This document shows positions 11,592 to 45,852 of a DNA stretch of 64,000 nt, piece after piece. A program made the translations under genes and the position numbers. The notes under the pieces were generated by a model. That model saw nothing but the letters and a program-made list of their open reading frames with translations, ran no database searches and was not told the origin of the DNA. The stretch spans positions 1,302,001 to 1,366,000 of the forward strand of contig NZ_JABBGH010000002.1 in NCBI RefSeq assembly GCF_012927305.1. The letters run 5' to 3'. The DNA comes from Hymenobacter polaris. Its GTDB lineage: Bacteria; Bacteroidota; Bacteroidia; Cytophagales; Hymenobacteraceae. Positions within the stretch are counted from its first letter, which is position 1. Each line of letters starts with the position of its first letter.

Positions 11592-13304
11592 ATGCCCAAA
11601 CCTTTTACTCCTATTATCAGTGGCTTGCTGCTTGGTTCCGTGCTCCTGCAAAGCTGCGCTACGCTTATCTCGGGTTCCCGGCAAACTATCCGCATAGTGG
11701 GGCAGCCGGCCGGCAGCACTATTTACGTCAACGACCAGCCGGTAGAAGCCAAACCCCTAGCCGATGGGGGCGCCAAGGTGAGCCTGCGGCGTAAGGGTAC
11801 CTCGGAAATCAGAATTAAGCACGAGGGCTACAAGGACTACAATGAAGTGTTGAAGGCCAACCGCGTAAACGGCGTTACCTACCTCAACTACTTGCTTATT
11901 CCGGTAGGCCTGGTGGGCGGGGTAGTGGGCGCGGCCGCTGGGAGCAGCAACAGTGGCCCGAGCCTAGGCCCCCTGGTGCTGGGACTGCTTGCGCCACTGG
12001 GGGCGCTGGGGGTGGACGCGGGCACCGGCGCTAATCGCCGCTTTACCGAAACGGAAGTGCACGCCCTCATGCCGCGGCTGCCTAAACCGGTTGCTAACGG
12101 CCAGTCGGTGGCCGCCGGCCCGGTGAACGTGCGCGTAAAAGGGGGAGATAAAATGGGTAACTTCTTGGTTATGAAAGAAACCAAGGAAATCCTCTACTTC
12201 GGTAAGACGCTCGATATAAACTCTGAAACCCTGCAAAACACCGTCAGCAATACCCTTAAGGAGCTGGGCTACAACGTGCCGGCGGCGGGGCGCAGCGTAT
12301 TTTCGGCGGCCTCGGCGGCGCGCTACACGCTGCAGGCGGAGATGCGGAATATCAAGTACGATATCAACGCCAACAGTCCCTACGAAGCCCTGGCCCGCTT
12401 CGAAACCAGCTGCACGGTGGAAGTGACTTGGAAGCTGGTGAACCAAACCCGCCAAACAGTGGTGGAGCAGAAAACCAGCGGCTCGAGCGTCAAGTTTGAG
12501 AAAGGTGGTAGCGCAGCCTTCGAAGACGCCTTCGAGAATGCTCTGTACACCTTCCTCGACCAGCCCACCACCACGGCCGCGCTGGCCAATCCCAATGCCC
12601 CGGCGCTGGCTTCGACTGGCTTAGAAGCGGCGAATGCTAGCGCAAGCACCGGCCTAGGCTCCACTTCAGCGGTGAAGCCAAATTTGGCCGCCAGTGAAAA
12701 AATGGCGCCCATCAGCGTGCGCCGCGCCGCGCCCCTCAAGCCCACCGGCGATAACGGCATCGGTGCCGCGGCGCGGTGCGTAGCCACCATCGTGACCAGC
12801 GACGGGCACGGCAGCGGTTGCTTCATCTCGCCCGACGGCTACCTCGTTACCAATGCCCACGTAGTAGGCAACGACGCTACGGTAGATGTGCTGCTCGCCG
12901 ACGGCTTGCAAGCCAAGGGCCGCGTGGTGCGCCTAAACCCCGACATGGACCTAGCCCTCCTCAAAGTGGATACCGACGGCCTGACGGCGTTTCAGCTGCC
13001 TACGGGTGGGGTAGTGGAGGTAGGCTCCGATGTGTTTGCCATCGGCACGCCCGCCGATAAGGAGCTGGGCCAAAGCATCGCGAAAGGTATTATCAGCGGC
13101 CGGCGCAAGCTCGACGGTCGCACGCTGCTCCAAACTGATGTAAGCATTAACGGGGGTAATAGCGGGGGCGCCCTCGTGGCGCGCTCGGGCCAGCTGCTCG
13201 GCATCGTGAATGCGAAACTGGTGGGCCAGGGCATTGAAGGTATTGGCTTCGCTATTCCGGCTGACCAGGTGAGCGAGGCTTTGCAGCTCAAATTTATTGA
13301 TTGA
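11592..13304 (+). CDS. Lipoprotein with PEGA-like domain and C-terminal trypsin-like protease
   Basis: 570 residues. A lipoprotein signal ends LLQSC-ATLIS (Cys at about 22). Next comes a PEGA-like beta domain (GQPAGSTIYVNDQPVEAKP), then a glycine-rich hydrophobic stretch (~100-140), a middle domain of ~150 residues (MKETKEILYFGKTLDINS ...), an Ala/Ser-rich linker, and an S1-type protease domain from ~390. The triad is intact: H423 (TNAHVVG), D453 (DMDLALL), S524 (NGGNSGGAL). No PDZ domain follows, unlike DegP/HtrA. The start is the ATG with a clean signal. It probably acts at the membrane surface facing the periplasm or outside. Substrate unknown. The domain combination is unusual in my experience. 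Confidence 0.8.
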   Translation: MPKPFTPIISGLLLGSVLLQSCATLISGSRQTIRIVGQPAGSTIYVNDQPVEAKPLADGGAKVSLRRKGTSEIRIKHEGYKDYNEVLKANRVNGVTYLNYLLIPVGLVGGVVGAAAGSSNSGPSLGPLVLGLLAPLGALGVDAGTGANRRFTETEVHALMPRLPKPVANGQSVAAGPVNVRVKGGDKMGNFLVMKETKEILYFGKTLDINSETLQNTVSNTLKELGYNVPAAGRSVFSAASAARYTLQAEMRNIKYDINANSPYEALARFETSCTVEVTWKLVNQTRQTVVEQKTSGSSVKFEKGGSAAFEDAFENALYTFLDQPTTTAALANPNAPALASTGLEAANASASTGLGSTSAVKPNLAASEKMAPISVRRAAPLKPTGDNGIGAAARCVATIVTSDGHGSGCFISPDGYLVTNAHVVGNDATVDVLLADGLQAKGRVVRLNPDMDLALLKVDTDGLTAFQLPTGGVVEVGSDVFAIGTPADKELGQSIAKGIISGRRKLDGRTLLQTDVSINGGNSGGALVARSGQLLGIVNAKLVGQGIEGIGFAIPADQVSEALQLKFID

Positions 13305-13334
13305 TACCCTGGGTGCTAAGGGTAGATAAGCCGC

Positions 13335-13363
13335 GGCCGGCAGTCTGTACCAGGCTGCCGGCC
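13335..13363. terminator. GC-rich hairpin after the protease gene
   Basis: GGCCGGCAG pairs with CTGCCGGCC around an 11-nt loop, 30 bp after the stop at 13304. No T run follows, so termination is plausible but not certain. Confidence 0.4.
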
Positions 13364-13469
13364 GTGTGGCTTTCGCTGGGTTGCGCAGGGTAGGCTGTAC
13401 TTTCGTAAGCAGGGGGCTGCGTTGCTGGGCGTAGTAAAGGTGGCCCGCTACTACTGCTTTGCGTTTGCC

Positions 13470-14108
13470 ATGTCGTTATTTACTGAGCCTCGCCGCTTCC
13501 CGCTCGACCCGCCCCGCCACCGCGGCTGGCTCGAAGTCATTTGCGGCTCCATGTTTTCGGGCAAAACCGAAGAGCTGATTCGCCGCCTCACCCGTGCCCG
13601 CATTGCGCGCCAGCGGGTCGAGATTTTTAAGCCTGCCCTCGATACCCGCTACCATGCCCAGGATGTGGTGAGCCACAACCATACCAGCATTCGCAGCACG
13701 CCCGTGCAGCTGCCCAGCGAAATTCTGCTGCTGGCCGGCGGCGGCACCGACGTGGTGGGCATCGACGAGGCCCAGTTCTTCGACGAGTCGCTGGTGGACG
13801 TGTGCCGCCAGTTGGCCGACGGCGGCACCCGCGTAATCGTGGCGGGCCTGGATATGGATTTTCGCGGCCGCCCTTTTGGCCCCATGCCGGCGCTGCTGGC
13901 CACGGCCGAGTTCGTGACCAAGGTGCACGCCGTGTGCGTGTGCTGCGGCGAACTGGCCGCCTACTCGTACCGTACCGTGCCCAGCGCCAGCCAGGTGCTG
14001 CTGGGCGAAACCGAAGCCTACGAGGCTCGCTGCCGCCCCTGCTTTTTGGCCGGCGAGGCCGCCCAGCCCCTGCGCGACCCAGCCCGGCAGGGCGCTGCGG
14101 GCCGGTAG
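13470..14108 (+). CDS. tdk: Thymidine kinase
   Basis: 212 residues from ATG 13470 ([10 protein letters not shown]). The P-loop GSMFSGKT is at residues 26-33, the magnesium/catalytic acid motif is GIDEAQFFD, and [15 protein letters not shown] is the thymidine-binding lasso region. Structural zinc cysteines appear as CVCCG and CRPC. It phosphorylates thymidine to dTMP in the cytoplasm for salvage. A longer in-frame start at 13422 adds an untypical hydrophobic stretch and is less likely. It stands alone, 112 bp before porZ. Confidence 0.95.
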
Positions 14109-14220
14109 CGGCAAGTGGGCCCTAGGGTGCCGCGCCGGCCCGGAGCAGCCGCGCACTAAGCAGCCAGCGGCCGCGTTAGCTTAGCGCCACTTTTCTTGCC
14201 TTATACTTTGCCGCTTGCTT

Positions 14221-16578
14221 ATGCGACAGCTTTCCGCCTGGGTTGTTTTTTGGTTGCTGCTCGGCCACGCCTTTGGTAGCCAGGCCCAGGGCGCGGCCTA
14301 CGGCGATTGGCAGCTGCACCTGCCGGCCCGCCACCCGCGGCTGCTGGCCGAAGCTGGCGACCGACTGTACGTGGCCGACGAGTCGTCGTTCTACTACTAC
14401 GATAAGGCGCTGGATGCCACGCGTATGCTTTCGCGCCGCGACGGGCTGAGCGACGTGGGCGTGCAGGCGCTGGCCTACGATTCAGCCTCAGCCCAGCTGG
14501 TTGTCGTGTATGCCAGCGGCAACATCGACCTGCTGGGCGCCGGCGGCACGGTGCGCAACGTGACGGACCTGCTGCGCAAGCAGGCAACCGCCAAGAGCAT
14601 CAATCAGGTACAGATTTTCAATGGCTTGGCCTACATCAGCACCAGCCTAGGGATAGTAGTGCTCGACCTGGCCAAGCGCGAGGTGCGCGACACCTACGGG
14701 GCCATCGGGCCGAGCGGCACGGCCGTGACGGCCTACGCCACGGCCGTGCTGCACGACACTATTTTTGCGGCTACCTCGGCTGGTATTTTGCGGGGGCGCC
14801 TTAGCTCGGCGGTTAACTTGCTCGACTACAGAAGCTGGGTGCAGGAAGTGCCTAACCCGCAAAATACCAGCCAGGCGTATGAATACCTAGCCGTGTACCA
14901 GGGGCATCTGGTGGCGGCAGCCCGCTACTACGGGGTAAGCTACCTGGCCGGCACGGGCGCGGCGCGCAGCTGGCGCTTCGTGGCCAACAGCTACGGCAGC
15001 GTGGCGCGGCGCCTGCGCACCAGCGGCGGCCAGCTGCTGGTTGCCTTCGAAAACAACCCGCTGCGCCGATTCGATGCCCCCACCGGCCGGCTGGTAGATG
15101 TGCTGCCCACGGCCAGCACGGGCCCGGTGGTAACGGATGCTCTGCGCGAAGCCGACGGTACCCTATTCGTGGCCAGCTACACCCTAGGGCTACTGCGCTT
15201 TGGGCCCGGCGCTACGGCCAACCCCGAGGTTATTCAGCCTAACGGCCCGGCCACGGCCCTGGCTTTTGGCTTGGTGGCCGACGCGGCCAGCAATACGGTT
15301 GATGTGCTGCCGGGCGGCTACTCGGGCAGCAGCGGCTTGCAGCAGGGCCGGCGCGAGGGCTTTTACGAGTACCACGGCGGGCAGTGGACCAACTACACGA
15401 GCGCCAACTACTCGGCCACCGATTTTCCTAATCTGCTCGACCTGTCGCGCGGCACCCGCCTGGCCGATGGCACGCTCTACCTGGCTAGCTACGGCAACGG
15501 CCTGCTGGCTTGGAAGGGCCCCGGCCAGTTTCAGCGCTACACCGCTGGCACGCCCGCAGGCTCGCCCCTGCGCAGCAGCCTCGACCCCGACGCTACCAAC
15601 CTGGACTACGTGCGCGTAACCGACGTGGCCGCCGACCCCAGCGGCCGCTACCTGTGGGTAGTCAACCGCCACCAGCGGGCCAACGTGTCGGGACTGCTGC
15701 GCTTCGAGCCGGGCACTGGCCGCTGGCAGTCAGCCAACTATGCATTCGGCCTGCAAAACCTCGACCGCGTGGTAGTGGATGCCTTCGGCAATCCCTGGGC
15801 CACGCAGTCGCGCAAGGAGGGCACCGGGCTGATGGCCTACGACACCACCAGCCGCCAGGCGTTCAACTTTGGCACCGCCAATGGGCTGCCCAGCAACTCA
15901 CTTTACTGCGTGGCGCGCGACCGCGCCGGCGCCATCTGGGTGGGCACCGCCGAGGGGGTAGCCTACGTGGGCGACCCTAGCCCCCTGGTGGGCGCCGTAG
16001 CCCAGCCTACGTTCACCAAGCCAGTGGCCCAGAGCGGCAACGGGCTGTTTCCGACGCTCTACAACGAGAGCGTAACCTGCATAGCCATCGACGGAGCCAA
16101 CCGCAAATGGTTTGGCACGCCCAACGGCCTGTGGCTCTTCAATGCCACCGCCAGCGAGGCACTGCTCCACTTCACTACCGCCAACAGCCCGCTGCCCAGC
16201 AACACGATTAACGACTTGGCCGTGAACGACAAAACCGGCGAAGTATTCGTAGCCACCGACGCGGGCGTGGTCAGCTACCAGGGCTCGGCCAGCCTCACCG
16301 AGGGCAAGCCCAGCTGCGCCCAGGTGTTCCCCAACCCCGTGCGGCCCGAATTCGCAGGCACCGTCGGCATCCGCGGCGTGGTAAACAACGCGCAAGTAAA
16401 AATTACCGACATCGCCGGCCACCTCGTGTACAGCACCACCGCCGCCGGCGGCACCGTCACTTGGAACCTCACCGATGCCCAGGGTCAGCGTGTGCGCTCG
16501 GGTGTGTACCTGGTGCTCAGCTCCGACGCCCAGGGCCAGAACACGTGCGTGAGCAAAGTAGCGGTGCTGAGCAAGTAG
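14221..16578 (+). CDS. porZ: PorZ-like beta-propeller protein of the type IX secretion system
   Basis: 785 residues from ATG 14221. Signal peptide (VVFWLLLGHAFGSQAQG), then two sets of propeller-type repeats typical of two-component-regulator-like propellers (SRRDGLSDVGVQALAYD; GLPSNSLYCVARDRAGAIWVG; NDLAVNDKTGEVFVATDAGV). It ends in a T9SS sorting-like domain (AQVFPNPVRPE ... GVYLVLSS ... KVAVLSK). This is the architecture of PorZ, a surface component of the attachment complex that processes T9SS cargo. Placement next to recO fits the arrangement I recall from other Bacteroidota. An ATACTTTG string, one step from the -7 box, sits 10 nt before the ATG. A general propeller protein is the alternative. 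Confidence 0.75.
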   Translation: MRQLSAWVVFWLLLGHAFGSQAQGAAYGDWQLHLPARHPRLLAEAGDRLYVADESSFYYYDKALDATRMLSRRDGLSDVGVQALAYDSASAQLVVVYASGNIDLLGAGGTVRNVTDLLRKQATAKSINQVQIFNGLAYISTSLGIVVLDLAKREVRDTYGAIGPSGTAVTAYATAVLHDTIFAATSAGILRGRLSSAVNLLDYRSWVQEVPNPQNTSQAYEYLAVYQGHLVAAARYYGVSYLAGTGAARSWRFVANSYGSVARRLRTSGGQLLVAFENNPLRRFDAPTGRLVDVLPTASTGPVVTDALREADGTLFVASYTLGLLRFGPGATANPEVIQPNGPATALAFGLVADAASNTVDVLPGGYSGSSGLQQGRREGFYEYHGGQWTNYTSANYSATDFPNLLDLSRGTRLADGTLYLASYGNGLLAWKGPGQFQRYTAGTPAGSPLRSSLDPDATNLDYVRVTDVAADPSGRYLWVVNRHQRANVSGLLRFEPGTGRWQSANYAFGLQNLDRVVVDAFGNPWATQSRKEGTGLMAYDTTSRQAFNFGTANGLPSNSLYCVARDRAGAIWVGTAEGVAYVGDPSPLVGAVAQPTFTKPVAQSGNGLFPTLYNESVTCIAIDGANRKWFGTPNGLWLFNATASEALLHFTTANSPLPSNTINDLAVNDKTGEVFVATDAGVVSYQGSASLTEGKPSCAQVFPNPVRPEFAGTVGIRGVVNNAQVKITDIAGHLVYSTTAAGGTVTWNLTDAQGQRVRSGVYLVLSSDAQGQNTCVSKVAVLSK

Positions 16579-16607
16579 GGTAGGGCCAATCTACCGCGCC
16601 GCCTAGG

Positions 16608-16654
16608 GTCATCCCAACGGCGCGAGCGAAATGCTTCGCTGCGCTCGGCATGAC
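16608..16654. repeat. Short REP-like palindrome upstream of recO
   Basis: GTCAT and ATGAC bracket a GCGCGAGCGAA / TTCGCTGCGCT stem. The sequence resembles the outer parts of the REP-like elements elsewhere in the window. An in-frame extension of recO through it (from 16631) is an artefact. Confidence 0.5.
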
Positions 16655-16696
16655 GTTCTTTCACTTCATTTTCAATTATTATTTCCCCTAGGCCTC

Positions 16697-17419
16697 ATGC
16701 TCATCAAAACCCACGGCATCGTTTTTAACTACCTCAAGTACCGCGAAACCAGCATTATTGCCCGCGTATACACCGAGCGGCGCGGCGTGCAGAGCTACCT
16801 CGTAAACGGCGTGCGCAAGGCCAAGCCGCCGGGCCGCATCGCCCTGTTCCAGCCCCTTACCCTGCTGGAACTGGTGGCCTACGTGCCGCGCCAGGGCTCC
16901 GACCTCACCCGTTTGTCCGAGTTTCGCTGCGCCGAGCCATTCCGCTCCTTGCCCTACGATGTGCGCAAGAGCAGCGTGGCGCTTTTCTTGAGCGAAGTGC
17001 TGAGCAAGGCCGTGCGCGAAGAAGAAGAAAACCTGCCGCTATTCCGCTTCCTGCACGATTCCATCCTGGCTTTTGACGAGCAGGAGGTGGGCATGGAAAA
17101 CTTTGCGCTGCTGTTTCTGCTGCACTTGGCGGGCTACCTGGGCTTCGGTATCACGAGCGGCGCCGAGCTCACCGACCAGCTGATGATGGCCGGCCCCGCG
17201 GGCGGCAGCGGCTACAGCAGCGGTCCGCAGCAGCTGCGCCTGCGCGAGTTCGACCAGTACTTCGACCAGCTGCTGCACGCCCCCGCCACCAGCACCATCC
17301 CCAGCGGCCAGGTGCGCCGCGAGCTGCTGGCCGTGCTGCTGCGCTACTACCAGCTGCACCTGGAGGGCTTCGGCGACATCAAGTCGCTGGACGTGCTCAG
17401 TGAGGTGCTCGCTGGCTAG
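16697..17419 (+). CDS. recO: DNA repair protein RecO
   Basis: 240 residues from ATG 16697 (MLIKTHGIVFNYLKYRETSII), the standard RecO start with an N-terminal OB-fold and a helical C-terminal part (SVALFLSEVLSKAVREEEENLPLF; LLFLLHLAGYLGFG). It acts with RecR to load RecA during gap repair. The usual zinc-binding cysteines are missing, as in many Bacteroidota RecO proteins. The last 212 bp recur at 20658-20869 with 13 substitutions and no gaps. The intact copy is therefore a possible mosaic: its 3' end may have arrived with the AT-rich islet that follows. Confidence 0.93.
   Translation: MLIKTHGIVFNYLKYRETSIIARVYTERRGVQSYLVNGVRKAKPPGRIALFQPLTLLELVAYVPRQGSDLTRLSEFRCAEPFRSLPYDVRKSSVALFLSEVLSKAVREEEENLPLFRFLHDSILAFDEQEVGMENFALLFLLHLAGYLGFGITSGAELTDQLMMAGPAGGSGYSSGPQQLRLREFDQYFDQLLHAPATSTIPSGQVRRELLAVLLRYYQLHLEGFGDIKSLDVLSEVLAG
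17208..17419 (+). repeat. Direct repeat, left copy (recO 3' end)
   Basis: This 212-bp segment, including the stop codon, matches 20658-20869 at a constant offset of 3450 with 13 mismatches and no indel (about 94% identity). It forms the left border of the AT-rich islet. Confidence 0.9.
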
Positions 17420-17659
17420 GCCTGCCAAGTGCCCCGCTCGCCCCTAGGTGTCAGGCGTCTGTGGTAACCCCACTGCTAAGCATAAAGCAAGCAAGGTTTG
17501 GCTGCGCGAGTTGCTGCACAGGCATCGCTGGGGGCGGGCTCTATGCAGCAGCGTCCTGCTTCGGCAGTAGCTACAGCTTGGCCACAGGTAGTAGAACTGC
17601 CGCCAGCAAGTATTTCTGTTGCCTAAACCTATCCTGGCTACATTCCCTAGCAAGCACAG

Positions 17660-18520
17660 CTATAACCCGCCGTAAGGCAATTTTACGGCTCTGGCCTTCT
17701 CCACATTCTCTTTTCCCTTAATCCTAGTCAGTATTCTAGCTAACAAGCTCGATTGGGGAGCGAAGCTTTCATGTACTACCGCCCCATTAGCCCTTACTCG
17801 TGAAGCTCTAATTTCTGTAAAGTTTCCTTGAAAACGAAGATGGTTTTTTTCTGCAACAAATTTGAGTAGTCTTTCAGCGTGCAGTGGAGACTTTAGCTGC
17901 TTAAAATAGTCAGAAATAAGTTGCAGGCGAAAGCCGTAAGTTTCAGCTGCTGCTCGCCCCATTATGGCAAAGCGGTCATTAAGCCCATTGTAAAGCGCCC
18001 AATCAGGAGTAATCAACAGTTTTTCTCCGTGCTGCTGCAGTTTCCGCGCAAACTCTTCAAAGGGAAAGGGGTCATGATAAATCATATCTGGACGTAGGTA
18101 AATAAATAAATCATTTGGTCCTGCTTGCCCGTGCCAAAATTCTGTTACTTTTTCTAGGCTATGGAGTGCCCTACAAAGATTTTTGGTGCTTTGAAAGTCG
18201 TCACCCCATGCGTCACCATGCGTATTGACTGAATCCCAATCAAAGCTGTAGTCGAACAAATCCTGTTTTATATGCTTGTATAAGTTTATGCCTAATTTTT
18301 CATGACCATTTACTTCAATACTCACATTTTCCTCTCCGGAATGTCGGTTTGAAAAGTTGCCATTGATATGCATGAATGCCGCTAAAGTATGGTAGCGCCA
18401 ACCTAGTTTTATTAAGGGGTCGAGTATATTCTGTTGTATTGATGCTTGGGTTTTTGACAATGAGCGGTTCATGCCAAAAAAGCATATCCATACTTGACCT
18501 GTATAGTTTATTTGTTTCAT
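17660..18520 (-). CDS. Putative glycosyltransferase-like protein in the islet
   Basis: 286 residues, starting MKQINYTGQVWICFFGMNRSL, which gives an N-terminal strand followed by LSKTQASIQQNI. Further motifs are NDLFIYLRPDMIYHDPFPF and LLITPDWALYNGLNDRFAIMG. The RPD and NDRFA-G pattern resembles GT-A-type or DUF7796-like proteins tied to polysaccharide genes; the assignment is by pattern memory and tentative. No signal peptide or membrane helix. Codon use is much more AT-rich than in the flanking genes, and there is a divergent exostosin-like gene nearby, so both may modify a surface glycan. The C-terminus is basic (RILTRIKGKENVEKARAVK). Confidence 0.5.
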   Translation of the reverse strand: MKQINYTGQVWICFFGMNRSLSKTQASIQQNILDPLIKLGWRYHTLAAFMHINGNFSNRHSGEENVSIEVNGHEKLGINLYKHIKQDLFDYSFDWDSVNTHGDAWGDDFQSTKNLCRALHSLEKVTEFWHGQAGPNDLFIYLRPDMIYHDPFPFEEFARKLQQHGEKLLITPDWALYNGLNDRFAIMGRAAAETYGFRLQLISDYFKQLKSPLHAERLLKFVAEKNHLRFQGNFTEIRASRVRANGAVVHESFAPQSSLLARILTRIKGKENVEKARAVKLPYGGL

Positions 18521-18588
18521 AAGATTCTGGTTGGTTATTTGTTATTAAAATAACTTTTTTAAGTTGCGGATAAAATTATTAAGACTTT

Positions 18589-18786
18589 TTAAAGCACTTG
18601 ATAAATAAAATTTTTTGGTTTATGCAGCAATATATTAATATCTGTCAGTGTCAAGCCTATTTCGCTGTGCAGTGCAAAGCAAATATTATTTAATACTGCA
18701 TTTGCTACTGAAGTACTGTTGCATGTTTTATTAGCCCAAATATAGCTATTGTACTTCGATAAGAAAATAAGTTGGCCATCCTGCAT
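18589..18786 (-). CDS. Small open frame in the islet, doubtful
   Basis: 65 residues (MQDGQLIFLSKYNSYIW ...). It is AT-rich, lies upstream of the putative glycosyltransferase on the same strand, and has no recognisable motif. It may be a remnant or chance in AT-rich DNA. Confidence 0.2.
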   Translation of the reverse strand: MQDGQLIFLSKYNSYIWANKTCNSTSVANAVLNNICFALHSEIGLTLTDINILLHKPKNFIYQVL

Positions 18787-19300
18787 CAGATAGGCTAAAG
18801 TAGGGTAGCAGTCACAGTCATTGTTTGCCTCCCTTTACACAAAGGGTAATAGAGATTTAGCACACAAACCATCCTTTTCTAGTTACTTACTACTAAACGG
18901 TTGAAATAATCTTATTCGCTGCTAGTTCAGGCTTGTTAAGTGGCGCAGTGTGCTTTGGCAATAAGAACAAGCCCGGTGTTTGGTAACAGAAGGCACCTTG
19001 TCGGATGCGAGCTTTATTAGGCTTCCAAACTCAACATTAACTAAATCCTGATTAAAGCTATAAAGCAACCGTCGCTACTACAGTGCCTGCCGTAAAATAT
19101 ATCCTAATCCTTGGCTGTTGAAGCGCTTTGGTATAAACTAGCAAAGTTTTGATGATTCAAAGAATATGATAAATTTATTAGTTAGGTAAGTATCTGATTG
19201 TTGATTTATCGAAGAGATTTAGTGAAGAACTTGTTTTGTGAGTTTGTGTGTAATTACCTTTGCCTATATTGAAAATAAATTTAAGTATTTTTTGGTTAAC

Positions 19301-20395
19301 ATGAAAAATAAATTTAAGTTATATACGGATTTGAGTCTGCTAAAAATTGGCCGCTATGTGCAGATGCTTATACCATTTATGTCTGACGATATAGCTAAGC
19401 AAGAATCTAGAATAGTTGAAGCCGGTAGGTTTGATGATTATATCAAATTTGGTAGAAATTTTATAGAATTAACCTCTATCGAGGAGTGTGATGCCTGTTT
19501 GTTGCCGATATATTATGACTTATCAGCTAATAGACGCTCTTTTGAAGAAAGTATTCAAGATTTTTTAGATAAAGTTGGCAAGGCTAACAAAAAATTATTA
19601 ATATTTGCTGGTCATGATGTTGCAAATGTAGCCATTACTATTAAAAATTCTATTGTATTTACTAGTGCTATTGATAAGTCATCGCAGGCAAATAATGAAC
19701 AATCATGGCCTCATTTTTTTGAAGATTTTTTAAAAAAATATACTGAAGGTAATATAATACCTCGTTCTAGGGGTATTACTCCCGTAATAGGTTTTTGTGG
19801 TTATGCTCCGCCTTTAAATGTATCTTTTGGAAAAGAAAAAATAATTAGTGGAATAAAATTAATTACAAATTACCTTGGATTAATTCAAAAGTATCCAGAT
19901 AAGATATCTCACTCATACCGGGCAAGGGCAATAATTGGATTGCAAAGGTCTTCTAAAATCGCTCCTAATTTTGTATTAAAAAGTAATTTTGCATTCGGAC
20001 CTAGTGGGCTTAATTCTGGTAAGGTAACAGAATCAAATGCTGATTTTAGAAGAATTTTTGTAGAAAATATATTAAATAGTGATTATACACTGTGCGTGCG
20101 AGGTATAGGGAATAATTCTATCAGATTCTTTGAGACTATCTGTTGCGGTAGAATACCTGTATTTGTAGATACTGACAGTGTTTTACCGTATGATAGCGTA
20201 ATTAATTGGCGAGAACTGTGCGTCTGGGTAGCTGAAAAAGATGTGGATAGGATTGATGAAGTAGTGGCAAACTTTCATCGTTCTATTTCAGATGAAGATT
20301 TTATAGCTTTGCAGAAGCGATTAAGAAATGTTTGGGAAGAGTATTTGTCGCCGACGGGCTTTTTTAAAAACCTACACCTGCTAATAAACTCTTGA
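19301..20395 (+). CDS. Exostosin-family (GT47-like) glycosyltransferase
   Basis: 364 residues from ATG 19301 (MKNKFKLYTDLSLL); a longer GTG start at 19238 is possible but gives an odd tail. The C-terminal part has the exostosin signature: DYTLCVRGIGNNSIRFFETICCG, then RIPVFVDTDSVLPYD, INWRELCVWV and an arginine/aspartate-rich tail. Earlier GFCGYAPP matches the first part of this family. These enzymes build glycans from nucleotide sugars; in bacteria they sit in polysaccharide or lipopolysaccharide loci. The gene is the most AT-rich in the window, consistent with transfer from a low-GC relative. The product is probably cytoplasmic; the sugar is unknown. Confidence 0.75.
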   Translation: MKNKFKLYTDLSLLKIGRYVQMLIPFMSDDIAKQESRIVEAGRFDDYIKFGRNFIELTSIEECDACLLPIYYDLSANRRSFEESIQDFLDKVGKANKKLLIFAGHDVANVAITIKNSIVFTSAIDKSSQANNEQSWPHFFEDFLKKYTEGNIIPRSRGITPVIGFCGYAPPLNVSFGKEKIISGIKLITNYLGLIQKYPDKISHSYRARAIIGLQRSSKIAPNFVLKSNFAFGPSGLNSGKVTESNADFRRIFVENILNSDYTLCVRGIGNNSIRFFETICCGRIPVFVDTDSVLPYDSVINWRELCVWVAEKDVDRIDEVVANFHRSISDEDFIALQKRLRNVWEEYLSPTGFFKNLHLLINS

Positions 20396-20657
20396 AGTAA
20401 GAATATTTAGTATGTAGAAGAAGGTACACCTCTATTTTAGTAGTGAGGCAGACGCTGTTCTTTACTCATATAGTTGCCTTCCGAAGACTAATTTAAGTGT
20501 CAACCGACTTGTAACCAATTGGTTGCTAACCGTTGCTATTTGCTATTTCAGGAAGTGAAAGTAGCGATACTAGTTTTGCACTCAGCAGGTGCGCCGCTAA
20601 AGCCAGTCTGGTCGGCTGCAGTTTTAGTTAATATGCTAAGGCTACTACGGTAGCCCT

Positions 20658-20869
20658 GCGGCTACAGCAGCGGCCCGCAGCAGCTGCGCCTGCGCGAGTT
20701 CGACCAGTACTTCGACCAGCTGCTGCACGCCCCCGCCACCAGCACCATCCCCAGCGGCCACGTGCGCCGCGAGCTGCTGGCCGTGCTGCTGCGCTATTAC
20801 CAGCTGCACCTGGAAGGCTTCGGCGAAATAAAATCGTTGGAAGTGCTCAGCGAGGTGCTGGGGGGCTAG
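20658..20869 (+). pseudogene. recO: Second copy of the recO 3' end (fragment)
   Basis: A 70-codon fragment matches the last part of RecO (GYSSGPQQLRLREF ... LSEVLGG, stop at 20867). An in-frame TAG at 20651-20653 precedes it, so it is not expressed as RecO. Of 13 differences from the intact copy about nine are silent and four change residues conservatively (Q/H, D/E twice, A/G). That pattern shows it diverged as a working recO allele before being cut off, rather than decaying after a local duplication. It marks the right border of the islet. Confidence 0.88.
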
Positions 20870-20970
20870 GGCGCGCAAAGGCGCTTGTACCGCCGCCCTA
20901 GGGCAGCGTGGCAGTGCAACCCCTAGGCGGCCGGGCGCTTCTGTAGGGCCTCACCCCACTAGCATGCACA

Positions 20971-23421
20971 ATGAATTGCAGCCGGAGTTGCCTTATTCGC
21001 CTGCTTAGCCTACTGCTGCTGGCGCTATTTAGCGAAGTTGCGGCTGCCCAAGGCCTAAGCAGTTCCGTAACTGGTAGCGTGCGCGACTCGGCGAGCCAGC
21101 AGCCAGTAGCGTTTGCCACGGTGGTTTTGTGGCCCAAGGGGGCGCTGGCGGGCCCACCAGCCGCCAGTGCCAGCACCGATGCCCAGGGCCGCTTTACGCT
21201 GGCAGTGGCGCCGGGCACCTTTCGCCTACAAGTAAGCCTGGTAGGCTATGCCACTCACCAGCAGCAAGTAGTGGTGGCGGAGCCGGTGGCGCTAGCTCTC
21301 ATATGGCTGGTGCCCGCGCCCCAGCAGCTAGGCGAAGCCGTGGTGGTGGGCACCCGGCCGCTGGTAGAAGTGCAGCCCGACCGCCTAGTGTACCACGCCA
21401 GCCAGGACGTAGGCAACGCTGGTGGCACCGGCCAGGATGTGCTGCGCCACACCCCGCTGCTGGCCGTGGATAACCTCGGCAGCGTAACCCTGCGTGGCTC
21501 GGGCAATTTCAAGGTGCTGATTAACAACAAGCCCGCGCCGGCGCTCACGCAAAACCTGGCTCAAGCCCTGAAAAGCCTGCCCGCCGACCAAATCCTGCGT
21601 GTGGAAGTAGTAACTACCCCTTCGGCGAAGAACGACGGTGAAGGCACGGCGGGCCTGGTCAACATCGTGCTCAAAAAAGCAACGGGCCCGGCGCTGAACG
21701 GGCGCCTTGGCGCCAGCGGCGGCAACCAAAGCAGCGAAACCACGGCCGCCCTCGGCTGGAAGCGCGGTAAGGTGGGTAGCACCTTGGCGGTGGGGGCCGG
21801 CGGCTGGCGCGAGCCCGACTTCCTAACGCGCCGCCGCCTGGATTTTACGAGTACTGGCCCGGCCGATACGCTTACCCAAAGCGGCCGGCGCCAGAATACC
21901 GGCACCTGGTACAACGCCTCCCTAGGGCTCGACTACGACCTAGCCGCGCACCACAGCTTCTCCCTGCTGGCGGTGCTGAGCGGCTACCAGGCCCAGGGGC
22001 AGCGCGCCCTGCTTAGTCAGCTGTCGTCGGCAAATGCGGCAGTTAATCAGCTTTTTACCCGCGCTACTACTGACTACGTGGGCAGCCTCGGCACCGAGCT
22101 TACGGGCACCTATACCCGCACCTTCGCCCGGGCCCGGCGCGAGTGGAGCGTGCTGGGCCAGTACGCCGCCACGGCCGGCACCGCAGGGTATGGCTTCGAC
22201 CAGTATACCAATTCGCGCGCGCCGCTGAATCCCGCCCAGGCCGACTACCGCGAGCGTAGCCAGGGCCGTACCCCCAGCCGCGAGCTTACCGCCCAAACAG
22301 ACTTCACCCAGCCCCTAGGCGCCAAAAGCACCCTGGAGGTGGGCACCAAAGCTATTTTTCGGCGCACGGGCTCGGTGGCCGAGGTAGCGGGTAGCGCGCC
22401 GGGCCAAGCCCTGGGGCTGGCGCCGCTGCCGGGCCGGGGCACTAGTTTCAGCTACCAGCAGCAAGTGCAAGCCGCCTACGCCAGCTATGCTACGGCGCCG
22501 GGTAAGCAGCTAACGGCCACCCTAGGGGCCCGCCTGGAGCGCACCGCCGACGAGGCTGACTTTGGGGCTGGTGGGGGCAGCCTGCCGCCCCGCAGCTACT
22601 ATTCGCCGCTACCCAGTGCCAGCCTGCGCTACGCTTTTAGCGATACCAGCAGCCTGCGCCTGGCGTACAGCCGCCGCATTACCCGCCCATCCATCGACTT
22701 TCTCAACCCATTTGTTGACCGCTCCAATCCGCAGAATATCACCTACGGCAACCCCACGCTAGCGGCTGAGCTAACCGATGCGTACGAGGCCAGCTACGCT
22801 ACCGGCATGCGCACCGCCACGCTGCTGCTAACGGGCGCGGTGCGCCACACCGGCCGCGCTATTGAGGCGGTGCGCCTGCCCACCAGCACGCCGGGCGTCA
22901 CGGCCCAAACCTTTGCCAACGTGGCGGCCACCACCTATTACCAGCTCACCCTCTACGGCACGGCCAAGTTCACGCAGCGCTGGGAAGTCAGCGGCGGCCC
23001 CAACGCGCAGTACGTGGTATTTCTGAGCCCCGACCGCGAACTGCTGCGCCGCGGCTTCTCGGCCGGCATGAACGTGGATACCTCGTACCACTTCACCCGC
23101 AAGCTCACCGCGCAGGCGTCGCTGGCGGCCGCCCTGCCCGCGCCCACCCTGCAGGGCCAGGGCTCGGCCAGCCTGTATTACACCCTAGGGGTCAAAAAAA
23201 CGGTGTTCGGCGACCAGGCCGACCTGGTGCTAAACCTGGCCAATCCCTTTACCGACTCGTTTCCCAACCGCAGCAGCCTTGCCACCGCGTTCCTCGACGA
23301 GCGCACCGAGTACCGCACCTACCAGCGCTCCTTGCGCCTCAGCTTCAACTACCGCTTCGGCCAGGAAGACCCAGCGCGCCCCCACAAAAAGGCCAGCAAC
23401 GACGACCTGAAAAGCCGGTAG
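20971..23421 (+). CDS. Outer-membrane beta-barrel protein (TonB-receptor-like, PF14905 type)
   Basis: 816 residues. A signal peptide (LLSLLLLALFSEVAAAQ) is followed by a CarboxypepD_reg domain (VTGSVRDSASQQPVAFATV ... FRLQVSLVGYATHQ), a plug-like domain (VDNLGSVTLRGSGNFKVLINNKP; VEVVTTPSAKNDGEG) and a long C-terminal barrel with alternating aromatic strands (SLRLAYSRRITRPSIDFLNPF). The phrase 'TPSA+YDAEG-like ... INIVLKK' is typical of the OMP_b-brl_3 family. It ends in a barrel strand (RLSFNYRFG) and a short charged tail. Role: ligand transport or surface adhesion; ligand unknown. It lies just right of the islet. Confidence 0.85.
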   Translation: MNCSRSCLIRLLSLLLLALFSEVAAAQGLSSSVTGSVRDSASQQPVAFATVVLWPKGALAGPPAASASTDAQGRFTLAVAPGTFRLQVSLVGYATHQQQVVVAEPVALALIWLVPAPQQLGEAVVVGTRPLVEVQPDRLVYHASQDVGNAGGTGQDVLRHTPLLAVDNLGSVTLRGSGNFKVLINNKPAPALTQNLAQALKSLPADQILRVEVVTTPSAKNDGEGTAGLVNIVLKKATGPALNGRLGASGGNQSSETTAALGWKRGKVGSTLAVGAGGWREPDFLTRRRLDFTSTGPADTLTQSGRRQNTGTWYNASLGLDYDLAAHHSFSLLAVLSGYQAQGQRALLSQLSSANAAVNQLFTRATTDYVGSLGTELTGTYTRTFARARREWSVLGQYAATAGTAGYGFDQYTNSRAPLNPAQADYRERSQGRTPSRELTAQTDFTQPLGAKSTLEVGTKAIFRRTGSVAEVAGSAPGQALGLAPLPGRGTSFSYQQQVQAAYASYATAPGKQLTATLGARLERTADEADFGAGGGSLPPRSYYSPLPSASLRYAFSDTSSLRLAYSRRITRPSIDFLNPFVDRSNPQNITYGNPTLAAELTDAYEASYATGMRTATLLLTGAVRHTGRAIEAVRLPTSTPGVTAQTFANVAATTYYQLTLYGTAKFTQRWEVSGGPNAQYVVFLSPDRELLRRGFSAGMNVDTSYHFTRKLTAQASLAAALPAPTLQGQGSASLYYTLGVKKTVFGDQADLVLNLANPFTDSFPNRSSLATAFLDERTEYRTYQRSLRLSFNYRFGQEDPARPHKKASNDDLKSR

Positions 23422-23446
23422 CAACCAATGGTAATCAAAAACGCAA

Positions 23447-23473
23447 AACGCCAGGCTACTGCAGCCTGGCGTT
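23447..23473 (-). terminator. Terminator between convergent genes
   Basis: AACGCCAGGCT pairs with AGCCTGGCGTT around 5 nt. Read on the minus strand it is followed by a T-rich stretch (TTTTGCGTTTTT), so it serves the FKBP gene at 23515-24555. Confidence 0.65.
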
Positions 23474-23514
23474 AGGAATAAGCCCTAGGAGGACGCGCCG
23501 AAATACCGGGCGGC

Positions 23515-24555
23515 TTACTTTTTCTTGGCCGCGGGACTCGCCTTTTTAACGGCCGGCTTGCCCTTGCTGGCGGGGCTGCTGGCCGCTGGCCTGGTGGTAT
23601 TGAGCAGCTCTACGTCGAAGCGCAGTGGCGCATCGGCTGGAATGTCGGCGCCCGCGCCACGCTCGCCGTAGGCCAGCGACGAAGGAATGAGCAGGGTGGC
23701 TTTGCTGCCCTTGGGCAGCGCGGCAATGCCCTGGTCCCAACCCGGAATAACCTGGCCGGCACCCAGCTTGAAGTCGAACGGCGTGCCGCCGTGCTTGTCG
23801 CTCGAGTCGAATTCCTTGCCCGTGGCCAGCACCGTGCCGCGGTACTTCACGCGCACCGTTTCGCCGGCCGTGGGCAGCGGGCCGGTGCCGTGCTTGGTAA
23901 TGACGTACCAAGTGCCGCCGGGCGTCTTCTTGGCCACGGACGCCAGCTTATATTCCTGCAAATAGGCCTGGATGGCAGCGTTGTCCTTGGGTAGCTGGGT
24001 GGCGGCATGGGCCTTGGCCTGGCGCTCCTGCTCGGCCCGCGCCTGCTGCTGAATCTGCTGCATGGCGGCCATCGCCTGGGCCTGCGTCACCAGCCCTACG
24101 GCCGTAACGTGCATTACCAACGCGTTGCCGCCGCGCTTCAGCTCGGCCGGCACCGGGCGGCCCTTAAACAGCGAGTCGGCCCCGAACCGGAACACGGCGC
24201 TGTCGCCGGGTAGCAGCAGCGACATGGCTTCCTCAGGGCCACCTTTGCGCTGCACGGGCTGCAGCGGCACGGGCACCGGCTGGTTCTTCAGCTGCTGCCG
24301 CGAGCTTTGCAGCACCGAGTCGCGTCCGGTGAGGTAGGCCACGTGGGCCATTAAGAACTTGCCCTGGCGGGTGCTATAGGCCGAGTCGGTGGGCACCACC
24401 AGCGGGCGGCGCTGGTAGCCACCACCCGGCGCCCGCCGAAACAGCTGGTACTCGGTGCCGCTGGGCAGGCGCTCGAAGCCAGTGGCCGGCGCCTGGGCCT
24501 GGGCGGTGCCCCCTAGGGCCACCAAGGAAAGAAAAGCTAACAAAAAACGCTTCAT
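23515..24555 (-). CDS. FKBP-type peptidyl-prolyl isomerase, secreted
   Basis: 346 residues from ATG 24555 (MKRFLLAFLSLVALGGTAQA, signal peptide). A ~190-residue N-terminal region with an Ala/Gln-rich helix leads to a C-terminal FKBP domain: VRVKYRGTVLATGKEFDSS, FKLGAGQVIPGWDQGIAALPKGSKATLLIPSSLAYGERG, PLRFDVELL. It ends in a Lys/Ala/Ser-rich tail. It should catalyse proline isomerisation in the periplasm. It is a tandem paralog of the next gene upstream, but with a cleavable signal instead of a lipid anchor. A longer in-frame start at 24612 adds an untypical tail. Confidence 0.9.
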   Translation of the reverse strand: MKRFLLAFLSLVALGGTAQAQAPATGFERLPSGTEYQLFRRAPGGGYQRRPLVVPTDSAYSTRQGKFLMAHVAYLTGRDSVLQSSRQQLKNQPVPVPLQPVQRKGGPEEAMSLLLPGDSAVFRFGADSLFKGRPVPAELKRGGNALVMHVTAVGLVTQAQAMAAMQQIQQQARAEQERQAKAHAATQLPKDNAAIQAYLQEYKLASVAKKTPGGTWYVITKHGTGPLPTAGETVRVKYRGTVLATGKEFDSSDKHGGTPFDFKLGAGQVIPGWDQGIAALPKGSKATLLIPSSLAYGERGAGADIPADAPLRFDVELLNTTRPAASSPASKGKPAVKKASPAAKKK

Positions 24556-24631
24556 GGCGCGAGAATTACGGGTAAAAAAAACCGCCACGCCAAAACGGCG
24601 TGGCGGCAACAAAAGGGGCTAGGGCAGCTGG

Positions 24632-25693
24632 CTACTGGCCCGCCGGGGCCGAGGTGGGAGCCTGGGCAGCCGGGTTCATGGCGCCCGCCGGCATCTTGGG
24701 GGCGTCCTTAATGTCCACTACCTCGATATCGAAGCGCAGCGGCGAGTTGGCCGGAATGGCGGGCGGCGAGCCAGCCTTGCCATACGCCAGCGACGAAGGC
24801 ACCAGAATAGTTGCCTTAGCGCCTTTGCTGAGCTGCGTCAGGGCATCGTCCCAGCCGGGAATAACCTGGCCGCGGCCCACGGCAAACGAGAAGTCAGGCT
24901 GGCCGGGGTGCTTGGCGCTCGAGTCAAACTCCTTGCCGTCGAGCAGCGTGCCGCGGTATTTTACCGTCACGAGCTGGCCGGGCTTGGCATCGGGGCCGGT
25001 GCCAGGCTGGGTAGTCAGGATGTAAACGCCGCTGCCGGTAGCGCTTTTCTTGGCGGCCGTCAGGTTGTTTTTCTTGATGTAGTCCTGCAGCGTCACCTCG
25101 TCTTTCTTGTCCTGGTCGGCGGCGTAGGCGCGCATCTGGCGCTGCTGCTCAGCCATGGCTATTTGCTGCAGCTCCTGCTGCATGCTCATGGCCTCGGCCT
25201 GGTCAATTACTTTCACGCCCACTACCTGCATTACCAGGTAGTTGCCGCCGCGCTTCAGCTCGGCCGGCACCGGGCGGCCTTTGAAGAGCGAGTCGGCGCG
25301 GAAGCGGAACACGGCGCTGTCGCCGGGCTGCACCAGGGCTAGAGCCTCCTCCTGGCCGCCTTTGCGGGTGGCCGCCATCAGGGGCAGGGGTACGGGATGA
25401 TTTTGCAGCTGCTGCCGCGAGCTTTGCAGCACCGAGTCCTTGCCGGTCAGGTAGGTGACGTGGGCCAGCAAAAACTTGCCCTGGCGGTCCTTAAAAGTAG
25501 GGTCTTCGCCGTTGGCTACCGTGCGGGCTGTGTACTTGCTGCCATCCTTTTTGAAAAGCTTGTACTCAATGCCCGACTTGGTTTTGGCAAAGTCGCCGCC
25601 ACTGTTGCACGACGAAACGAGGGAAGCAATGCTAAGCGCGCCAGCCGCCAGGGCCAGCTGCCGGGCCACGCCGGGCCGGAAAGTAAACTGCAT
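24632..25693 (-). CDS. FKBP-type peptidyl-prolyl isomerase, lipoprotein
   Basis: 353 residues. The N-terminus has a lipoprotein signal ending LVSSC-NSGG (Cys near 29). The middle region matches its downstream paralog (DSVLQSSRQQLQNHPVPLPL; GDSAVFRFRADSLFKGRPVPAELKRGG). The FKBP domain (VTVKYRGTLLDGKEFDSS; VIPGWDDALTQLSKGAKATILVPSSLAYGKAG) is complete. It ends in a Pro/Ala-rich tail. Both proteins probably fold envelope proteins, one anchored and one free. The 28-bp-arm hairpin at 25731 lies just upstream of its start. Confidence 0.9.
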   Translation of the reverse strand: MQFTFRPGVARQLALAAGALSIASLVSSCNSGGDFAKTKSGIEYKLFKKDGSKYTARTVANGEDPTFKDRQGKFLLAHVTYLTGKDSVLQSSRQQLQNHPVPLPLMAATRKGGQEEALALVQPGDSAVFRFRADSLFKGRPVPAELKRGGNYLVMQVVGVKVIDQAEAMSMQQELQQIAMAEQQRQMRAYAADQDKKDEVTLQDYIKKNNLTAAKKSATGSGVYILTTQPGTGPDAKPGQLVTVKYRGTLLDGKEFDSSAKHPGQPDFSFAVGRGQVIPGWDDALTQLSKGAKATILVPSSLAYGKAGSPPAIPANSPLRFDIEVVDIKDAPKMPAGAMNPAAQAPTSAPAGQ

Positions 25694-25730
25694 GAAAACA
25701 GATTGAAAATGAAATGTGGGAAATGCGGAG

Positions 25731-25795
25731 GATGTGTAAATGTGAGAGATGTGAAAATGAGCTGGTAATTTTCACATCTCTCACATTTACACATC
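25731..25795. repeat. Perfect 28-bp inverted repeat (hairpin)
   Basis: Arms 25731-25758 and 25768-25795 are exact complements around a 9-nt loop. The arm begins GATGTGTAAATGTGAG. It sits between the FKBP lipoprotein start and the stop of the upstream DHH gene on the same strand, and may separate their transcripts. Confidence 0.75.
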
Positions 25796-25816
25796 TTCTA
25801 CATTCGAAATTCAAAG

Positions 25817-26881
25817 TTAGGCCAGCGGCGGCGCAACTACCACCGGCACCGGCTCGGGCACCGGGGTGCTCACCAGCTGGGCCTGGTACTGCGGAAGCAG
25901 CCCCACGAAGCGCTCCACCGTGGCATCGAGCGGCTGGTAGCTGACGCCACCCGAGGCGTTGTGGTGCCCGCCGCCGTCGAAGTGGGCGCGCGAGAAATCA
26001 GCCACCGAAAAGTCACCCACCGAGCGGAAGGAAATCTTCACCGCCGAGCCGCGGTCGATGAACACGGCCGCCAACACGATGCCCTCGATGCTGAGCGCGT
26101 AGTTGACCAGGCCTTCGGTGTCGCCGGTCTTGCTTTCGTAGTCGCGCAACTCCTGCTGCGTCACGGCAATGTAGGCGGTGTTGAATTCACGGCGCACCAC
26201 CAGCTTATCTTTCAAGATGTACCCTAGGAAGCGCAGCCGAATTTCGGAGTGCGAATCGTAGATGCGGCGGTGCACGGCGGCCAAGTCGATGCCCACGTTG
26301 AGCAGCTCGGCGATGATGAGGTGCACGTTGCGCGAGGTGCTGGGGTGCCGAAACGAGCCCGTGTCGGTCATGATGCCTGCGTAGAGCGCCTCGCCCATGC
26401 CGCGGTCAATGAGGTCCTGGTCGCCGAGGGCCCGAATAATCTCGAAAATCAGCTCGGCCGTGGCCGCCGCCTGCACATCGGAGTAGGCCAGGTCGGCGAA
26501 GTGCTCGGGGCGCTGGTGATGGTCGATGAGCACCTTGTAGCCCGGCGCCGTGCGCACGTACTCGCCTAGCTCATTGATGCGCCCTAGGCAGTTAAAATCG
26601 AGGCAGAAGAGCAGGTCGGCCCGGTGCACCAGGTCGCGCACCTGGCGGTCGTTGTGGCGCGGCTCATACACCACCACCTCGTCGTTGCCCGCCATCCAGT
26701 TGAGGAAGGCCGGGTAGTCGGAGGGCGTGACGACCGTCACGGAGTGGCCCTTCTTTTTAAGGTAGGTGGCCCAGGCCAGCGACGAGCCCAGCGCGTCGGC
26801 GTCGGGCTTGTGGTGGGTGGTGATAAATATCTGTTTGGGCTCGGCCAGTAGGCTCTGCAACTCGGAGACGGAAGGAAACAT
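25817..26881 (-). CDS. nrnA: DHH/DHHA1 phosphoesterase (NrnA-like)
   Basis: 354 residues from ATG 26881 (MFPSVSELQSLL). DHH-family metal motifs are present: THHKPDADALGSS at residues 22-34, a mid-domain Asp (LDFN), and VLIDHHQRPEH. The DHHA1 half carries the substrate-binding GGGHHNASGG. This is the layout of bifunctional oligoribonuclease / pAp phosphatase NrnA, which degrades nanoRNA and the sulfur-assimilation by-product pAp. A short Pro/Val tail follows. An in-frame extension to 26986 has no support. Divergent from ndk. It could also hydrolyse cyclic dinucleotides, as some relatives do. Confidence 0.85.
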   Translation of the reverse strand: MFPSVSELQSLLAEPKQIFITTHHKPDADALGSSLAWATYLKKKGHSVTVVTPSDYPAFLNWMAGNDEVVVYEPRHNDRQVRDLVHRADLLFCLDFNCLGRINELGEYVRTAPGYKVLIDHHQRPEHFADLAYSDVQAAATAELIFEIIRALGDQDLIDRGMGEALYAGIMTDTGSFRHPSTSRNVHLIIAELLNVGIDLAAVHRRIYDSHSEIRLRFLGYILKDKLVVRREFNTAYIAVTQQELRDYESKTGDTEGLVNYALSIEGIVLAAVFIDRGSAVKISFRSVGDFSVADFSRAHFDGGGHHNASGGVSYQPLDATVERFVGLLPQYQAQLVSTPVPEPVPVVVAPPLA

Positions 26882-27037
26882 CGACAGCGTGACTGACCTA
26901 CGAATGCGAACTAAACAACGACCGGCGCCCGGCCGGCATAAAAACGGGCCGACAAAGTTCGGCACGAATTGGGTTTCAACACGCAACCCGAGGGGTAAGG
27001 TTCGCCTTCATCGAAGTTGCCAGCCCGCTGCTTAGCC

Positions 27038-27045
27038 TACCTTTG
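27038..27045 (+). promoter_or_regulatory. ndk promoter (-33 TTG, -7 TAccTTTG)
   Basis: TACCTTTG at 27038-27045 with TTG at 27017-27019, an 18-nt spacing close to the Bacteroidota sigma-ABfr pattern. It lies about 46 nt before the ndk ATG, giving a conventional short leader. Confidence 0.7.
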
Positions 27046-27091
27046 CGCCCCCAAGCCCATCATTTCCCCTTTTACACCCTCGAAAAAAAGC

Positions 27092-27499
27092 ATGGCAACC
27101 AACCGCACCTTCACGATGATTAAGCCCGACGCCGTGGCCGACCAGCACATTGGCGACATTTTGGCCATGATTGAGCACGGCGGCTTCCGTATCGTGGAGC
27201 TTCAGAAAGTAACCCTGACGCCCGAGCGCGCCGGCGAATTTTACGCCGTGCACAAAGAGCGCCCTTTTTACGGCGACTTAGTAAAGTACATGTCGAGCGG
27301 CCCCATCGTGGCCGCCATCCTCGAAAAAGATAACGCCGTGGCAGACTTCCGCACCCTCATCGGCGCCACCAACCCGGCCAACGCCGAGGAAGGCACCATC
27401 CGCAAAAAATTTGCGAAGAGCATCGAGGCCAACGCCGTGCACGGCTCCGACTCGGACGAGAACGCCCAAATTGAGGGTGCGTTTTTCTTTAAATCGTAG
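27092..27499 (+). CDS. ndk: Nucleoside-diphosphate kinase
   Basis: 135 residues from ATG 27092 ([15 protein letters not shown]). Complete family set: [49 protein letters not shown], and the phospho-histidine H117 within NAVHGSDS. It balances NTP pools by phosphotransfer through that histidine. Followed by a strong terminator. An in-frame TTG at 27017 belongs to the promoter, not to the gene. Confidence 0.97.
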
Positions 27500-27573
27500 A
27501 TTTAATTGACGCAACGGATTTCACAAGCGCGCTCGCGATGCGGGCTGGCTAAGCAGATTTTCGCTTAAAAAGC

Positions 27574-27607
27574 AAATACCCGTCTGACAATCAGGCGGGT
27601 ATTTTTG
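27574..27607 (+). terminator. Terminator after ndk
   Basis: AAATACCCG plus TCTGA pairs with TCAGG plus CGGGTATTT, followed by TTG; classical stem and T run for ndk. Confidence 0.75.
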
Positions 27608-27661
27608 TGCCCTAGCAGGCGGAAGGGATGGAACTCTTGTGCTCTTTTTATACTGCCGAGC

Positions 27662-30313: not shown

Positions 30314-30341
30314 GGGTGGCAAAGGCATTGGCGGAATATAC

Positions 30342-30429
30342 AAAGAACGTCATGCTGAGCCCCGCGAAGCATCTCTACCGAACAACGACGCGGTAGAGAT
30401 GCTTCGCGGGGCTCAGCATGACGTTCTTT
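30342..30429. repeat. REP-like element, perfect 39-bp inverted repeat
   Basis: Arms 30342-30380 and 30391-30429 are exact complements around a 10-nt loop. The core GTCATGCTGAGC ... GAAGCATCTCTACC recurs, with changes, at 36965-37056, 45752-45852 and 55561-55720. Confidence 0.85.
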
Positions 30430-30444
30430 TAAACAAAGTATTGA

Positions 30445-36950: not shown

Positions 36951-36964
36951 TAGTTAGATAACTA

Positions 36965-37056
36965 AGAACGTCCTGCTGAGCTTGCCAAAGCATCTCTACC
37001 GTGCCGTTCGGGTGTCGTTCTGCCAAGATGCTTCGGTAAGCTCAGCAGGACGTTCT
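36965..37056. repeat. REP-like element in the nuoF-nuoG spacer
   Basis: AGAACGTCCTGCTGAGCTTG pairs with CAAGCTCAGCAGGACGTTCT allowing a mismatch; the inner parts also match the GAAGCATCTCTACC family core imperfectly. Confidence 0.75.
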
Positions 37057-37066
37057 AAATTCAAAA

Positions 37067-45568: not shown

Positions 45569-45751
45569 TAATCTCCCTAGCCTCGACCGCCACCGTGGGC
45601 GTCATCCTCATGACTGCCAGCGACCCAGCAGGCCGCCAGCCAGCTCGTGAATACTCGCGCCAAGTTCTGGCCGTGCCTGAGCATGCACCAGTTCCTCACC
45701 GTCTCCGCCGGCAGGTAGCGAAATTGCCGCGCCTGCTTTAAAACAAAGCCG

Positions 45752-45852
45752 GTCAGGCTGCGCTTGCCGAAGCAACTCTACCGCTTCGTTGCTTGACGGC
45801 CTAACCGACCCTAGGCAGCGCGGCAGAGCTGCTTCGGCAAGCGCAGCCTGAC
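45752..45852. repeat. REP-like element upstream of the glutathione peroxidase
   Basis: GTCAGGCTGCGCTTGCCGAA pairs with TTCGGCAAGCGCAGCCTGAC; the middle is imperfect and holds a CCTAGG. Same family as 30342-30429. Confidence 0.75.

Follow-up and report, generated by a model that had tools for sequence, protein, structure and literature searches.

A duplicated recO 3' end around an AT-rich islet in Hymenobacter polaris, a possible scar of integrase-free acquisition by one crossover

Results

In a 64,000-bp stretch of the Hymenobacter polaris genome (contig NZ_JABBGH010000002.1, positions 1,302,001 to 1,366,000; hereafter the window, whose coordinates are used throughout), the 3' end of recO occurs twice, on either side of an AT-rich islet with a glycosyltransferase gene. 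Our preferred reading, to which we give a probability of roughly 55%, is that this locus is the scar of an acquisition by one crossover without an integrase, in which the recO end of a relative entered together with the islet and the other end was joined without homology. The complete recO gene lies at 16697-17419 on the forward strand (Pfam RecO_N, 2.7e-16; RecO_C, 4.6e-14). Alignment confirmed the initial annotation that the last 212 bp of this gene (left copy, 17208-17419) recur 3450 bp downstream in the same direction (right copy, 20658-20869, forward strand), without gaps and with 13 substitutions; with one further base, the direct repeat spans 213 nt (17208-17420 and 20658-20870) and is 94% identical. 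The copies are identical over an 86-bp stretch (17225-17310). Both 3' ends are complete, and similarity to recO begins abruptly at 20657/20658. The right copy occupies a stop-to-stop frame of 71 aa (20654-20869) that lacks an ATG and directly follows an in-frame stop, such that only the left copy belongs to a complete gene, as initially proposed. A homology segment in direct duplicate around an insert, as expected of a single-crossover (Campbell-type) insertion, is present.

The substitutions change 12 codons, eight of them silently (rather than the nine or so first counted) and four by replacement (Q>H, D>E, D>E, and A>G). A random single-base change in the repeat would be silent in 25% of cases, and the probability of at least eight silent changes in 12 is 0.003. 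This bias indicates that the left and right tails both have a coding past.

Searches of the genome and the genus argue that the repeat is not due to chance. In the genome itself (5.59 Mb, 8 contigs), with 40 of 473 first-look candidates scored, three other matches to the recO end were found, each 39-44 bp long with an E value of 1.1e-6 or worse. The recO end was matched in 115 of 120 Hymenobacter genomes, including this one; with six candidates scored per genome, none of the 119 others held a second match better than 1.0e-6. Likewise, no second recO end was present downstream of recO in 62 loci, each compared with its own recO (stretches of up to 8 kb, a few loci having less than 2 kb); among the three best matches listed per locus, none exceeded 38 bp. 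A same-strand self-comparison (at least 80 bp and 80% identity) of 20 stretches, together 400 kb of the 5.59 Mb, plus the window in four overlapping pieces, returned the recO pair and ten other pairs, all of them gapped and 83-136 bp long. The four of these ten that were inspected resemble one hairpin repeat; pairs in stretches L158 and L160 are among the others.

Divergence between the copies is strongly uneven. They differ at 4 of 169 positions in 17208-17376 and then at 9 of 40 in 17377-17416; cut differently, at 2 of 137 positions in 17208-17344 and 11 of 72 in 17345-17416. The last part holds 85% of the differences, compared to 36% for pairs of relatives (189 pairs, 99th percentile 0.56). 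For these comparisons, 63 recO loci were reduced to 57 rows by removing L097 (broken frame or length) and L070 and L074-L077 (identity below 60%). When the cut point was left free and site rates were taken from the 57 relatives, 47 of 20,000 simulations were as uneven, and the best cut fell at 17377. Over the front 169 bp, where the copies differ at four sites, the nearest other species differs at 25, and the residue string HLEGFG is common to both copies and absent from all 57 relatives listed. The initial annotation of two recO alleles therefore holds for the last 40-75 bp (9/40) and fails over the full 212 bp, given the near-identical front (4/169) and the shared HLEGFG.

The two tails also have different neighbors. 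In a comparison of the last 40 bp, L079, L084, and L089 are the closest rows to the right copy (7/40), and the left copy (9/40) ranks only eighth; the left copy is nearest to the right copy (9/40), followed by L036 and L092 (10/40). An exchange within recO predicts that polarity is swapped between front and tail. Counted over the ten closest relatives, the right copy carries the more frequent base at 7 of 9 tail sites and the left copy at 3 of 4 front sites, which is the predicted direction, a trend that weakens when all 57 are counted (see Discussion). The gene looks resident up to about 17365-17376 and donor-derived beyond. The foreign-looking part would comprise the tail and the first ~65 bp downstream (17377-17485, forward strand), the latter weakly similar to the spacer that follows the right copy: the ~70 bp after the two recO stops were matched in 7 of 1000 dinucleotide shuffles, for a piece picked post hoc, and a longer flank in 94 of 1000. 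The left spacer was also aligned to the start of the outer-membrane protein gene described below, without significance: the score was reached by 860 of 1000 shuffles for the part beyond the start codon and by 94 of 1000 for the flank as a whole.

The islet between the copies is AT-rich, as initially described, with a G+C content of 25-47% (17801-20500), whereas the flanking genes have 58-72%. Its description as a glycosyltransferase islet is shown for only one of its two main open reading frames (ORFs), which encodes a GT47 exostosin-like glycosyltransferase (19301-20395, forward strand; PF03016, 4.3e-14). The second main ORF, of 286 aa (17660-18520, reverse strand), was initially also called a glycosyltransferase; it is an orphan, with no family above cut-off in Pfam (best, DUF7796 with an E value of 0.055) and no match in NCBIfam. 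The orphan protein was not found in the 119 other genus genomes, in 394 other genomes of a phylum sample, or in phages; its structure, predicted without an alignment, had a mean predicted local distance difference test score (pLDDT) of 32.8 and no usable fold. Neither islet protein was confirmed in viral contigs. The GT47 gene is matched in 12 of 120 genus genomes, namely this one, nine at 59-64% identity, and two weakly. In eight of those nine, recO lies on another contig or hundreds of kb away; the ninth, G019, has no recO match. In agreement with the original claim that no integrase is present, no recombinase or integrase was recognized when the two main islet ORFs and six smaller ones were scanned against Pfam. 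Searches for Rfam families (17300-21000) and transfer RNA (tRNA) genes (12000-28000) came back empty.

We also looked for a donor. The recO tail together with the left spacer matched in 38 of 120 genus genomes (this one included), within the first 78 bp that represent the recO tail; the lone exception was one short match at 63-100. The whole islet DNA matched in 9 of 120 (this one included), the other eight solely inside the GT47 gene, and no match to the islet was found in plasmids.

Comparison of the 63 recO loci placed the locus in context. Most Hymenobacter loci have tk-porZ-recO on the left and FKBP-FKBP-nrnA on the right. FKBP lies downstream of recO in 57 of the 63 (one of them from Rufibacter), and in 54 of these 57 the match starts less than 400 bp from the recO stop. 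Since FKBP follows recO in relatives, the whole interval from 17420 to about 23500, i.e., islet, second recO end, and outer-membrane protein (OMP) gene, is extra in the window. This OMP gene (20971-23421, forward strand; TonB/OMP_b-brl_3, PF14905, 1.6e-72) had been taken for the resident neighbor; instead, it had no tblastn match in the relatives' recO loci, and its best genus homolog (68% identity) lies in G083, on a contig other than that of recO. The usual right neighbor of recO, an FKBP-type isomerase gene, is found beyond it (23515-24612, reverse strand). Two FKBP-type isomerase genes lie in tandem at 23515-25693, and most of the relatives compared carry their counterparts on the right side of recO.

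Other genes stand between recO and FKBP in three of the 57 loci with FKBP, L058, L091, and L084. Because these three hold different cargo, the interval may be a site that tolerates insertions. A search for the same arrangement around other cargo, which the initial annotation had suggested as a check, found no second recO end in any of the three. Their cargo lies at 8718-9715 in L058, 4216-6066 in L091, and 4213-8660 in L084. It comprises eight ORFs; of the five scanned, one is a PMT_2-type protein, one a sigma factor, one weakly OMP-like with a score below cut-off, and two gave no match.

Two further features of the window were recorded. A palindrome, GGCTAC-TACG-GTAGCC, lies at 20640-20665 just before the right copy, and its arm recurs where recO similarity starts. 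A dispersed inverted (hairpin) repeat of ~100 bp occurs at 30340-30430, 36960-37057, 45742-45852, and 55588-55700, with a partial copy at 16590-16661; it is also present in sampled stretches L148, L149, L157, and L159 of the same genome.

Discussion

The repeat, its uneven divergence, its absence from the relatives compared, and the lack of a recognizable recombinase in the scanned ORFs were observed directly. On the preferred reading of a single crossover, a donor molecule from a relative would have brought in a recO end of its own, the spacer behind it, and the AT-rich islet with the GT47 gene. It would have undergone one homologous exchange with the resident recO near 17366-17376, and a joint without homology at the other end, where the islet abuts the recO fragment at 20657/20658. 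The product would be, from left to right, a hybrid but intact recO, the islet, and a second recO end that lacks a start and has the displaced resident tail. The palindrome next to this putative illegitimate junction might have aided the joint. In the likeliest form of this event, the fragment would have been closed to a circle and inserted by a single crossover, with the exchange region homogenized; alternatively, one-ended, homology-facilitated illegitimate recombination with a sister copy would give the same picture. The OMP gene would have been gained at another time. We infer in this way which tail is foreign, whether the donor was circular or linear, the route of uptake, and the order of the two acquisitions. 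The genome encodes the ComEC and DprA families, the presence of which is compatible with DNA uptake. The initial annotation that a foreign recO end displaced the resident end to the right is hence favored for 40-75 bp rather than for 212 bp.

Several observations weigh against this account. A plain single crossover predicts even divergence along the repeat. To account for the near-identity of the front, the model has to invoke conversion near the exchange point, a donor that was itself mosaic, or a joint with a resident sister copy, none of which is favored here. The foreign tail would measure just 40-75 bp, and the right tail prefers its clade by a margin of only 7/40 versus 9/40. When all 57 relatives are counted, the more frequent base is that of the right copy at only 4 of the 9 tail sites (that of the left copy at 5) and that of the left copy at 2 of the 4 front sites; the predicted polarity therefore leans on near relatives and few sites. 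Two other species pairs, of 135 comparable row pairs, outscore the recO copies for unevenness, and uneven variation, or recombination, of recO ends may thus occur in other members of the genus. Neither genus genomes nor plasmids yielded a donor in which this islet follows recO, and ComEC and DprA also score in Escherichia coli and most control genomes, which makes them no proof of competence. Finally, a tree of 209 bp unites the left and right copies at 100/100, with G083 and G028 next (98/93); the tree of the first 511 bp of recO places the gene in a group of 13 with these and other genomes (93/76). Sister grouping of the two ends is the outcome that the initial annotation had named as refuting its own reading. 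The relatives sampled are too distant to discriminate: the closest is about 86% identical over the first 510 bp of recO, and with none nearer, sister placement cannot tell the same strain from a near relative.

This sister grouping and the near-identity over 169 bp are what a local duplication would predict, in which the strain copied its own recO end, the islet came to lie between the two by a different route, and divergence of the tails followed. We regard such a history as unlikely, given that the tails differ at 9 of 40 positions after 4 of 169, mostly by silent or conservative changes that point to two coding histories, and that some other species are closer to the right tail than the left tail is. 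It is also possible, but appreciably less probable, that the polarity is reversed: recO and the islet would be resident, and a donor segment of recO end, OMP, and FKBP would have entered through an exchange in or beyond FKBP, its left end being joined illegitimately at 20658. The OMP gene is as foreign to the site as the islet, and one fusion would account for both acquisitions; moreover, over all 57 relatives the bases of the left tail occur as often as those of the right. We rate this reversal below the preferred single crossover because it offers no explanation for the mosaic, in which 169 nearly identical bp give way to a tail with 22% divergence; the right tail also fits better among the ten closest relatives.

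The geometry, with the gene end regenerated on the left and a fragment on the right, matches a site-specific island with its attachment site in the recO 3' end and an integrase that was lost or supplied in trans, and an exchange near 17208 would also give low divergence there and high divergence further off. We nevertheless consider such an island very unlikely: none of the eight islet ORFs scanned resembles a recombinase, no tRNA gene lies within 12000-28000, and the loci compared, including the three with other cargo, show no second recO end. An assembly artifact is barely conceivable, given that the copies differ by 13 bases and sit within a 1.47-Mb contig. As regards the later fate of the locus, recombination between the copies would yield a complete recO with its native tail and a circle carrying a recO end, and the released circle could insert behind recO of a close relative; we think it improbable that the locus serves as such a reversible, integrase-free cassette.

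No publication on this locus appeared in the literature listings searched, and on the preferred reading it adds an example of a recombination outcome already known, not a new kind of system. In an E. coli lacZ system, a product diagnostic of a duplicated gene end was obtained from 56 of 60 Lac- clones, with duplications of 109-950 bp in 14 sequenced clones, ascribed to a single crossing-over of a shortened, reclosed circle, instead of the deletion expected of homology-facilitated illegitimate recombination (HFIR) (PMC3240628). The H. polaris locus is alike in having an insert between partial gene-end duplicates (109-950 bp there, 212 bp here) without an integrase; it differs from this laboratory pairing of plasmid and chromosome in that the tails here diverge by 22% and the event is reconstructed from one genome. 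The donor homology in the lacZ experiments was reportedly identical to the chromosome.

HFIR itself, as outlined there, combines one homologous and one illegitimate end and generally deletes resident DNA (PMC3240628), and its illegitimate joint usually shows 3-10 bp of micro-homology. The event proposed here would share the homologous and illegitimate ends, the latter putatively at the abrupt edge at 20657/20658; unlike in HFIR, the outcome is a duplication of 212 bp in place of a deletion. The minimal mobile element of Saunders and Snyder (2002) is said to involve exchange through both flanks and not to require a gene-end duplicate. The alternative gene sets between conserved neighbors are similar, as seen in the other recO-FKBP cargo of L058, L091, and L084 (3/57), whereas the gene-end duplicate left here is a difference. 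The H47 genomic island is small, lacks recombinase genes of its own, is flanked by imperfect direct repeats, and has demonstrated excision and integration (PMC3191183). The present islet resembles it in being small, in the absence of recognized recombinase genes, and in its imperfect flanking repeats; any mobility of the present islet would be hypothetical. Reuse of the same attachment site, a trait of site-specific islands, was seen in none of the 62 loci or 119 other genus genomes.

If the preferred single-crossover reading is true, the locus would be a natural scar of a small islet added behind a core gene without a mobility enzyme, with the core gene kept whole. The mosaic point in recO would make the exchange readable, and counting similar scars across genomes could estimate how often one-crossover gains occur outside the laboratory.

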